Both the position numbers and the translations under genes were made by a program. This document shows positions 53,814-56,941 of a DNA stretch of 64,000 nucleotides, piece by piece. How positions within the stretch are numbered: the first letter of the stretch is position 1; every line of letters starts with the position of its first letter. The stretch comes from Bdellovibrionota bacterium (GTDB lineage: Bacteria > Bdellovibrionota > Bdellovibrionia > Bdellovibrionales > Bdellovibrionaceae): contig CAUJGP010000024.1 in NCBI GenBank assembly GCA_963170155.1, forward strand, positions 1 to 64,000. The letters run 5' to 3'. The notes under the pieces are model-generated. The model searched no databases. It saw only the letters and a program-made list of their open reading frames with translations, and was not told the DNA's origin.

Positions 53814-54581
53814 TTGGACGTAGCGTCACCATCCCTTGAACTCAAGAATGTCGACGTCCACTTCCGTGGTGAGCCTATTCTCTCCGCAATCAACCTACAA
53901 ATCCAACCAGGAGAACGCGTTTCGATTATTGGTCCCAGCGGCCAAGGTAAATCAGTTTTATTGAAAACTCTCGCAGGACTCATTATACCCACCCGTGGAC
54001 ATGTTTTTATTCAAGGCTGCGATTGGCATCATACTCCCAAAGACACCAAGATTCCGCTGTTAAAAAACCTGGGGATGCTTTTTCAAAAAAATGCTCTTTT
54101 TGACTCTCTCTCCTGCGGAGAAAATATTGCTTTTCCGCTCAGGGAAGTGAACCATCTTCCTGAAGAAGATATTCAAAAGCTTGTGGCTTATTTTTTAGAA
54201 GCCGTCGCGATTCCTCATGCAAAAAATCTCTACCCAGATGAAATCAGTGGCGGTATGCAAAAAAGACTGGGCATTGCGCGTGCTCTTGCATTAGACCCTC
54301 AAATCTTATTTTACGATGACCCCACAGCAGGTCTTGATCCCATTACAAGTCGCAAAATCGTGGACCTCATTTGCGAATTGCAAAAAAAGAAAAACTCTAC
54401 TCTTGTCGCGATTACCAATGATATGAACCGAGCATACCAAATGTCAGACCGCATCCTGATGGTCGTAGATCAAGCAGTTCTTGAAGCAGGATCACCTCAG
54501 TCCATTCGATCCAATCAAGATCCGCGCATTCAACAATTTATCAACGGTAAGCTCAGCGGGCCCCTCACGGTGATGGCATGA
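53814..54581 (+). CDS. MlaF-like ABC ATPase A, with degenerate catalytic residues
   Basis: 255 residues from TTG 53814 (GGAGG six bases upstream). Walker A GPSGQGKS (40-47), Q-loop F-Q91, signature ISGGMQKR (144-151) intact, Walker B LFYDD (D168, D169 in place of the usual D-E), H-loop AITND with N202 for the His. So its own catalytic site looks impaired while its signature is normal. It is one half of a lipid-transport (Mla/MCE-type) ABC complex. Stop overlaps the next ATPase gene. Confidence 0.88.
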   Translation: MDVASPSLELKNVDVHFRGEPILSAINLQIQPGERVSIIGPSGQGKSVLLKTLAGLIIPTRGHVFIQGCDWHHTPKDTKIPLLKNLGMLFQKNALFDSLSCGENIAFPLREVNHLPEEDIQKLVAYFLEAVAIPHAKNLYPDEISGGMQKRLGIARALALDPQILFYDDPTAGLDPITSRKIVDLICELQKKKNSTLVAITNDMNRAYQMSDRILMVVDQAVLEAGSPQSIRSNQDPRIQQFINGKLSGPLTVMA

Positions 54582-55321
54582 TTCATTTTAAAAATGTGGT
54601 AAAACGTTTTGGTGATCGCACCATTCTTAAAGGAATTTCTTTTGATCTCGATGAAGGAGAAATTTTATTCATTCTGGGTACCTCTGGCACCGGGAAATCT
54701 GTTTTATTAAAAACTATTGTAGGGCTTTTGAGGTCTGATGAAGGAGAAATTTATATTGACCATCAAGAGGTCACAAAACTTTCAGAAGCCGATTTTGCTC
54801 CCATACGGAAAAAATGTGGCATGGTTTTTCAACATCCAGCTCTTTTCGACTCCATGACTATTTTTGATAATGTTGCTTTTGGTCTAAGAAAACATTTTAA
54901 AATGTCCGAAGCAGAAATTAAGGTCAAAGTTCGCAATGCACTGACCATGGTTCATCTCACAGGCATTGAAAACAAATATCCTTCTGAAATTTCTTATGGG
55001 ATGCAAAAACGTGTGAGTCTCGCAAGAACCGTCGCCATTGTCCCTCGAGTGCTCTTGTTTGATGAACCCACAACAGGCCTTGATCCTGTCACAACAAATG
55101 CTGTTAACATGCTTATTAGAGATCTTTCGCACACCTTAGGAGCAACCTCGATTGTCGTTAGTCATGACATGGCCTGTGCCTTGGCCATTGCCAATAAGAT
55201 CATTGTTTTGGATCAAGGAAATATCGTCGCTCAAGGCACACCTCAAGAAATACTCCAATGCCGAGTCCCTTTGGTCGAAGATTTTCTCATTGAGGTGAAA
55301 AATGACTCCCAACTCCTTTAG
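54578..55321 (+). CDS. MlaF-like ABC ATPase B, with degenerate signature
   Basis: 247 residues. Walker A GTSGTGKS (34-41), Q-loop FQ85, signature ISYGMQKR with Y140 for the first signature Gly, Walker B LLFDEPTTG (D162, E163), H-loop VSHD (H196). The catalytic residues are intact and the signature is unusual, the converse of the first ATPase. It overlaps the first ATPase by four bases and the permease by 20. Suggests an obligate heterodimer for lipid transport; homodimeric MlaF is the E. coli rule. Confidence 0.88.
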   Translation: MIHFKNVVKRFGDRTILKGISFDLDEGEILFILGTSGTGKSVLLKTIVGLLRSDEGEIYIDHQEVTKLSEADFAPIRKKCGMVFQHPALFDSMTIFDNVAFGLRKHFKMSEAEIKVKVRNALTMVHLTGIENKYPSEISYGMQKRVSLARTVAIVPRVLLFDEPTTGLDPVTTNAVNMLIRDLSHTLGATSIVVSHDMACALAIANKIIVLDQGNIVAQGTPQEILQCRVPLVEDFLIEVKNDSQLL

Positions 55322-56099
55322 TCATTACATCCTAAATATTTTTTCTGAAATTGGTTCACTCATTCTCTTTTTAAAAGAAGTCCTTATAACCTCCATCAAG
55401 TATCCTTCCTCACGACAACAGATTTTAGAACAAATTTGGCAGGTCACCATGCAAAGTGTTTCCACAACTTCCATGGCGGGTTTTTTTGTGGGAGCAATTA
55501 TGGCGATTCAATTTGCCATGCAAATGAGTGAATTCGGAGCGATTGGTTATTTAGGGGGTCTCACCACCAGCGGAACCATTCGTGAAGTAGGGCCGCTACT
55601 CATTGCTTTTTTACTCAGTGGAAAGATCGGTGCCTACACCTCTGCAGAATTGGGAACTATGCGTGTGACAGAACAAATCGATGCGATTCGCTGCCTTGGG
55701 GCTAATCCCATCCAAGAGCTTATTGTGCCACGGTTCATTGCCATTGTTATTTCCAGCTTTTTTCTTTTGGGTGCGGGTTTAATCATGTCTGTTTTTGGCG
55801 GAGCACTCATGGGATATCTTTTTGCAGGAGTGAGTTACGAACAATACGTCCGCTACATTCCCTCATTGATCACTCTTCCTTCTATTATCAGCGGAACCTT
55901 CAAAAGCTTTGTTTTTGCTTTTATTCTTGGAAGTATTTGCACTTATCAAGGCTATAAGACCACTGGGGGCGCTAAAGGCGTTGGCCGTTCTGTAGTCAAT
56001 ACCGCTGTCCTCACAATGATGTGCATCGTTGTCGCCGATTGGATTACAAGCACATTAAGCGATCTTATTCTTAAGATGATTACAGAGACTATCCACTAG
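55302..56099 (+). CDS. MlaE-like permease
   Basis: 265 residues with about five membrane helices. GFFVGAIMAIQFAMQMSEFGAIGYLGGLTTSGTIREVGPLLIAFLLSGKIGAYTSAELGTMRVTEQIDAI is the MlaE/YrbE signature with the conserved acidic and Arg residues; LIMSVFGGALMGYLF and GSICTYQGYKTTGGAKGVGRSVVNTAVL follow. It is the inner-membrane permease for phospholipid trafficking with the two ATPases. No MCE (MlaD) gene is seen in the next positions. Shine-Dalgarno GAGG five bases before ATG. Confidence 0.9.
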   Translation: MTPNSFSHYILNIFSEIGSLILFLKEVLITSIKYPSSRQQILEQIWQVTMQSVSTTSMAGFFVGAIMAIQFAMQMSEFGAIGYLGGLTTSGTIREVGPLLIAFLLSGKIGAYTSAELGTMRVTEQIDAIRCLGANPIQELIVPRFIAIVISSFFLLGAGLIMSVFGGALMGYLFAGVSYEQYVRYIPSLITLPSIISGTFKSFVFAFILGSICTYQGYKTTGGAKGVGRSVVNTAVLTMMCIVVADWITSTLSDLILKMITETIH

Positions 56100-56146: not shown

Positions 56147-56941
56147 ATGGTTATTATTCGAATTTTCAGACTTTTTCGTTTAATCACAGTCGTAGCCCTT
56201 TTTTTTATAAAGGCTGTTCTCATTCATATCACAACCGCTGATCCTCACTTACGGAGAAAGCGATTCGAACAAAATGTGACAGACCACAGTGACCTGGCTT
56301 TAAAGGCACTCAATGTCGAACTCAAAGTAACCAATCCTCCAATGCAAGATCAAACTTATTTGATTGTTTCCAATCACCTTGGATACCTTGATATTTTTGC
56401 TATTGCCGCTGCAATCCCCAGCCTTTTTGTAACCTCTGTAGAGATGAAGGAAACCCCATTTTTGGGTTGGCTTACAGAAATGGGTGGCTGTATGTACGTA
56501 GAGCGCCGAAATCGTAATAATATTTTAAGTGAGATTAAAGAAATTGAAGCGGCTCTAAATGACGGCTTTAATGTCGTTTTGTACCCAGAAGGACGATCCA
56601 CAAATGGTGAAAAAGTTTTGCCCTTTAAAAAATCGCTTCTCATGGCTTGTGCTGACAGCAATGCACACGTGATGCCTGCAGTGGTGAATTTCAGATTTGT
56701 AAATGGTGAGCCCGTTCAAAGTAAACATCGAGATTGGCTCTGTTGGTATGATGATATGCCCTTTATAACATCTATCTGGAATGCCACTCAAATCAATCAT
56801 TGCCTAATGACCTTGGACTTTCTTGATGTTGTTCATGTCAACGGAGACTCCAATCACAAAGATATTGCCACTAAGGCCCAGAACCAAATCGAAGCACGAT
56901 TTATTCCGCTCTCCACTGCTGACTTACAAGGTATAAGTTGA
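56147..56941 (+). CDS. 1-acyl-glycerol-3-phosphate acyltransferase (PlsC-like)
   Basis: 264 residues. One N-terminal membrane segment (about 8-25). Motif I SNHLGYLDIFAI (NHxxxxD, about 79-90), motif III YPEGRSTNGEKVLPFKKS (about 148-165) and a VMPAVVNFRF motif IV are as in lysophosphatidate acyltransferases. It makes phosphatidic acid from lysoPA. Its 47-bp gap after the permease gene suggests the same operon, so lipid synthesis and lipid transport are linked here. The end overlaps the convergent Sua5-like gene by 18 bp. Confidence 0.9.
   Translation: MVIIRIFRLFRLITVVALFFIKAVLIHITTADPHLRRKRFEQNVTDHSDLALKALNVELKVTNPPMQDQTYLIVSNHLGYLDIFAIAAAIPSLFVTSVEMKETPFLGWLTEMGGCMYVERRNRNNILSEIKEIEAALNDGFNVVLYPEGRSTNGEKVLPFKKSLLMACADSNAHVMPAVVNFRFVNGEPVQSKHRDWLCWYDDMPFITSIWNATQINHCLMTLDFLDVVHVNGDSNHKDIATKAQNQIEARFIPLSTADLQGIS

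Follow-up and report, generated by a model that had tools for sequence, protein, structure and literature searches.

The window analysed here was the 64,000-nucleotide stretch at positions 1 to 64,000 of contig CAUJGP010000024.1 (assembly GCA_963170155.1, Bdellovibrionaceae), and coordinates refer to this stretch unless another contig or locus is named. Two ATPase genes and a permease gene lie next to each other on the forward strand. ATPase A (53814-54581, + strand, 255 aa) and ATPase B (54578-55321, + strand, 247 aa) overlap by 4 bp; both are MlaF-type nucleotide-binding domains (NBDs) matching Pfam ABC_tran, and the closest solved structures to both were those of MlaF (9.4e-51 for A, 1e-52 for B). 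The permease MlaE1 (55302-56099, + strand) overlaps B and belongs to the MlaE family (PF02405, 3.8e-61). The start codon of A is TTG, and a non-ATG start (read as L) was also found at the equivalent place in the relatives L015 and L017. Single-chain structure prediction of A gave a confident NBD fold (mean pLDDT 88.7).

The two ATPases depart from the canonical motifs at different places. In A, the Walker A motif (GPSGQGKS, at residue 40), the Q-loop and the signature SGGM (residues 145-148, 54246-54257, + strand, within E-I-S-G-G-M at 143-148) are normal, and two positions are degenerate: Asp169 (54318-54320, + strand, in FYD-D169-P) replaces the catalytic Glu at the position of MlaF E170, and Asn202 (54417-54419, + strand, in T-N202-D) replaces the H-loop His. 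B carries Walker A GTSGTGKS at residue 34, the canonical catalytic Glu163 (55064-55066, + strand, in LFD-E163-P) and the canonical H-loop His196 (55163-55165, + strand, in S-H196-D), and its signature is SYGM instead of SGGM, with Tyr140 (54995-54997, + strand, in E-I-S-Y140-G-M). E. coli MlaF is canonical at the aligned positions (K,T,Q,S,G,G,M,D,E,H). The coordinates, the residues D169, N202, E163, H196 and Y140 and the two signatures had been given in the original prediction, and re-reading of the sequence confirmed them.

In ABC transporters, each ATP site is formed by the Walker motifs of one NBD and the signature of its partner (PMC7756269), and in the closed MlaF dimer the Walker A and signature motifs meet (PMC7784689). 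Because the sites are shared in this way, a canonical site and a degenerate site would be obtained together only in an A/B heterodimer, in which the A signature is predicted to complete the canonical site with B. Residue mapping gave two defective sites and no canonical site for either homodimer (A/A or B/B). It had been proposed that one composite site holds all canonical residues and the other only unusual ones; the first part holds across the relatives described below, and the second was overstated, as A retains the Walker A Lys/Ser, the Q-loop Gln and the Walker B Asp. The site on the A side should, for this reason, still be able to bind ATP.

Conservation was assessed on related loci, taken both from a species-level collection and from whole genomes belonging to the family and the wider phylum. 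After removal of identical sequences, 102 distinct loci carrying both A and B were obtained across Bdellovibrionota; these A+B pairs share descent and are not independent events. The SGG signature of A and the catalytic Glu of B were kept in all 102 pairs, and the B signature was changed to Tyr or Phe in the same 102. The H-loop His of B was present in 101/101 readable pairs, and the complete site formed by the K/Q/D/E/H residues of B and the SGG of A was canonical in these 101, the His being unreadable in the remaining pair. On the A side, the catalytic residue and/or the H-loop His was altered in 101/101 readable pairs (H-loop unreadable in the remaining one). The commonest state was D,N in A with SYG in B (75 of 102 pairs). 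The pairing of D169/N202 with Y140, for which conservation in related genomes had been in question, is thus not specific to one strain: it recurs across the phylum, and the complementary pattern was found in 102 distinct pairs.

The altered residues of A are not uniform. Its catalytic position is D in most pairs and E or S in deep branches, where A may be E,N or E,S (D-E-N, D-E-S; also DET) and so retains the catalytic Glu. The H-loop position is N, S or T except in two readable pairs with His (D-D-H and D-S-H), both of which have an altered catalytic residue. The deepest member and outlier, L082 (labelled Deltaproteobacteria), combines S,H with SFG. The extent of activity loss at the second site would therefore be expected to vary among lineages, given the deep-branching A proteins with Glu and the two pairs with His. 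On the ATPase tree, A and B formed separate clades (values of 94 and 97); a single step accounted for the change of the signature Gly, and at least 4 steps were needed for the H-loop His and at least 7 for the catalytic residue.

Other ATPases linked to MlaE or MCE genes were fetched from the same family as a control and had SGGM, D-E and H in 20/20 cases. Since these 20 proteins and E. coli MlaF are canonical, the complementary pattern is not a general property of the MlaF proteins of this lineage. The other MlaE-linked ATPases in the Bdellovibrionota genomes studied were mostly canonical. Ortholog-level matches to B were found in 107/241 genomes sampled over the phylum, a count whose few weakest matches are canonical single-ATPase systems (L207-L209, L216). 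Outside Bdellovibrionota, occurrence was sampled weakly, through the best 80 loci of a single pattern scan.

Among 66 family genomes, 47 had both A and B, 17 had neither and 2 were discordant (Fisher p 1.3e-13, a value that serves only as a guide because the genomes are related). Both discordant cases seem to reflect gaps in the assembly: in G021 a B fragment lies at a contig end, and in G059 the contig stops upstream of B. The paralogues thus co-occur in relatives, as the original prediction demanded, with concordance in 64/66 genomes and loss of both together. The permease MlaE2 and the MCE gene track the presence of A/B, and A, B, MlaE2 and MCE are all missing in the genera g15 and g17.

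These two further genes lie beyond the window. In relatives the operon order is A-B-MlaE1-MlaE2-MCE; MlaE1, MlaE2 and MCE accompany A-B in 51/62 long loci, and the A/B overlap is mostly 4 bp. In the genome studied here, MlaE1 has no adjoining MCE gene, and a second permease, MlaE2 (contig C24:444232-445002, - strand; PF02405, 7e-58), adjoins a gene for a single-MCE-domain protein (contig C24:443446-444219, - strand) about 390 kb from A-B-MlaE1 on one contig, with no adjoining ATPase gene. Lacking an MCE gene and an ATPase gene, respectively, the two loci complement each other. MlaE1 and MlaE2 each formed one clade (100 and 99), into which the two permeases of this genome fall one apiece; together with the single operon of the relatives, this shows that the operon has been split here into two unlinked halves. 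The closest solved matches to both permeases were MlaE of MlaFEDB, and the permease is most likely an MlaE1/MlaE2 heterodimer, as judged from the two sequence families. Single-chain prediction of the MCE protein gave a confident MCE domain, and low confidence for the C-terminal helices/half. The genome contains 5 MlaE and 4 MCE genes in total. Separation is also found elsewhere: in G057, A, B-E1 and E2-MCE lie on three contigs, and in G040, A lies at a distance from B-E1-E2-MCE. Gene separation has left the residue pattern intact in G000, G057 and G040.

Taken together, the best explanation, and one that we hold to be very likely, is an MCE-type lipid transporter with a heterodimeric A/B ATPase, a heterodimeric permease, one catalytic and one degenerate ATP site. 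One ABC transporter of the MCE type (type VIII, MlaFE-like) would contain A and B as its two unlike nucleotide-binding subunits, an MlaE1/MlaE2 heterodimer as its permease and, as its periplasmic part, the single-MCE-domain protein encoded beside MlaE2. With A and B arranged head-to-tail, the Walker A/B motifs and H-loop of B would act with the SGGM of A to hydrolyse ATP, and the site formed by the Walker A/B motifs of A (D169, N202) and the SYGM of B would bind ATP with little or no hydrolysis. Degenerate sites of known exporters often couple a change of the catalytic Glu with one of the H-loop; they hold unhydrolysed ATP and may serve as lasting glue (PMC7756269). The degenerate site of A/B probably prevents the NBDs from separating during the cycle, a role that has been proposed in heterodimeric exporters. 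The expected cargo is a phospholipid-like lipid, which would pass between inner membrane and MCE ring; the label of lipid transporter follows from family membership. An asymmetric lipid transporter had been put forward before, and the conserved pairing and co-loss of A and B support it; that account was incomplete, having overlooked the second permease MlaE2 and the MCE protein.

An A/B heterodimer could also hydrolyse ATP at both sites at unequal rates, with Asp169 as a weaker base, so that the asymmetry would be kinetic and not on/off. This would fit the intact Walker A Lys, Q-loop Gln and Walker B Asp of A and the catalytic Glu kept by several deep-branching A proteins (DEN/DES/DET), but only two readable pairs have retained the H-loop His, and in 102/102 the signature of the partner has changed. 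With these two changes besides that of the catalytic residue, three features are affected in most pairs, and in E. coli MlaF the single substitution E170Q lowered ATPase activity by about 80% (PMC7784689); we therefore consider two working sites unlikely. Less likely still, at long odds, are separate homodimers (e.g. A2 and B2, each with its own permease), whose complementary residues would be coincidental. Two permeases and two ATPases are indeed present, and A is sometimes encoded away from B-E1-E2-MCE (G057, G040). However, a canonical site would be missing from either homodimer, although the composite site is unchanged in 101/101 readable pairs; moreover, A adjoins B in most operons, the two are lost together, and a single MCE gene accompanies the pair. 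Decay of A, as a degenerating gene or a duplicate under relaxed selection, which would leave the pattern with little meaning, is scarcely credible: A does vary more than B (mean column identity 56% vs 64%), but throughout the phylum neither its signature nor its Walker A Lys varies, the residues that have changed are conserved in turn (D/N in most pairs), its frames are open and its predicted fold is confident.

The preferred reading, a heterodimeric ATPase on a heterodimeric permease, was compared with known transporters. An MlaE-family permease, an MlaF-type SGGM ATPase and an MCE-domain partner are likewise found in MlaFEDB (type VIII) of E. coli, Pseudomonas and Acinetobacter, and the Bdellovibrionota system has the features of the MCE/MlaFE class: the MlaE-family permease, the MCE partner gene and the MlaF/MceG-like ATPase. 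MlaF and MlaE of MlaFEDB are both homodimers (PMC7784689), and a single ATPase gene there gives two canonical sites, whereas the Bdellovibrionota system has two ATPases with complementary substitutions, two permeases and one degenerate site. No match to PF05494, PF04333 or PF13466 (MlaC, MlaA and the STAS_2 protein MlaB) was found in the genome studied here, and for this reason the Mla pathway of E. coli is not directly transferable. An operon with two unlike MlaE-family permeases, as in the relatives, is also known from mycobacterial Mce1 (YrbE1A/YrbE1B + MceG), in which YrbE1A/YrbE1B form a heterodimer and MceG is a homodimeric ATPase, with six different MCE proteins (PMC9882608). In contrast to actinobacterial Mce operons with six MCE genes and one ATPase, the Bdellovibrionota operon has one MCE gene and two ATPases; the permease tree did not resolve the kinship of E1/E2 with YrbEA/B.

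By sequence, the substitutions in the two NBDs spare one composite site and alter the other, as in degenerate-site ABC transporters. TM287/288, TAP1/2, BmrCD and CFTR likewise combine one canonical with one degenerate composite site. In such heterodimeric exporters, the catalytic Glu and H-loop changes lie on one NBD and the signature change on the other (PMC7756269). The Bdellovibrionota system differs from them in its MlaE permease family, its MCE periplasmic partner and its separate NBD and TMD chains, instead of the fused TMD-NBD chains of type I (type IV fold) exporters; a B-MlaE1 fusion was found in a single genome only. The MlaE fold is related to that of ABCG/ABCA, and the sterol transporter ABCG5/ABCG8 is likewise a heterodimeric lipid transporter with a degenerate site. 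That site has signature changes and a Walker A Lys-to-Arg change (PMC7756269), whereas Walker A is intact in both A and B.

The MCE transporter kind, the permease heterodimer (Mce1) and the degenerate sites of exporters are already known. In the open-access literature, where most matches were judged by title or abstract, no description of a heterodimeric MlaF or MCE ATPase was found, nor do we know from it of a described relative built as an Mla/MCE transporter with two ATPases and two permeases; as far as these sources reach, this architecture appears to be new. It is also probable, with somewhat less assurance than for the transporter itself, that these loci represent a phylum-wide class of MCE lipid transporters whose ABC core would be asymmetric throughout, with one catalytic and one structural ATP site, and which would work without MlaA, MlaC and MlaB. 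If this is true, a degenerate site would for the first time have been shown at work in a type VIII ABC transporter. Such ATP sites have been described chiefly in CFTR/TAP/TM287-type exporters, and the reason for their persistence is debated; an MCE/Mla-type transporter with an equivalent residue pattern on a different permease family offers an independent test of their role, in a class of lipid transporters whose direction of transport is itself disputed. As every ABC subunit is different, each could be mutated separately, unlike in the homodimeric Mla system. The finding suggests that Bdellovibrionota, some of which are predators that live inside the periplasm of other bacteria, have a characteristic envelope-lipid system.

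Several minor observations concern the operon. The natural B-MlaE1 fusion, which counts in favour of the proposed transporter, is one 570-aa frame (L045:5747-7459, also read as L218). An alignment that mixed it with separate B and E1 rows was discarded, the B rows being misaligned at about 20% identity. An apparent E1-E2 fusion in G042 (open frame of 513 aa) was rejected: the E2 ORF overlaps E1 in a different frame. No natural A-B fusion was found among the loci read. In the window, a PlsC-type acyltransferase gene (56147-56941, + strand) follows MlaE1 at a distance of 47 bp, in the place that MlaE2 occupies in relatives; the nearest named models were those of lyso-ornithine lipid O-acyltransferase, below their cut-offs, and no PlsC match was present in the A-B-E1-E2-MCE loci of relatives. 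This gene is possibly a passenger of the broken operon, outside the conserved cassette. Two proteins without Pfam match, encoded downstream of MCE in the genome studied here (L013:2912-4125), recur at that place in several relatives and are possible extra components. L055, on a contig titled as a Streptomyces griseus MAG, has a typical Bdellovibrionota A-B-E1-E2 operon, and this label is most likely wrong.

Two other unusual ATPases were seen. The first is a third ATPase in a second MlaE/MCE locus (G000:C15:5779-6486; L012:3277-3987, - strand), with Arg for the Walker A Lys, Asp at the Q-loop position and a PGG signature; the catalytic Glu and the H-loop His are replaced by Asp and Tyr, respectively. 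Its relatives occur in 49/66 family genomes; among the 20 that were read, the Q-loop Asp and the catalytic Asp recur and the signature Pro is usual, and the protein is an apparent conserved pseudo-ATPase of an MCE system. The second is a solitary paralogue of A, here called A' (G000:C23:128376-129113; L124:4868-5626, - strand; 48% identical to A), sporadic in the family, with no permease or B adjoining, D for the catalytic Glu and His at the H-loop. A' was rejected as a partner of the third ATPase, as their distributions differ. On the ATPase tree A' is nested inside the A clade, and for this reason its H-loop His looks regained after separation from B.
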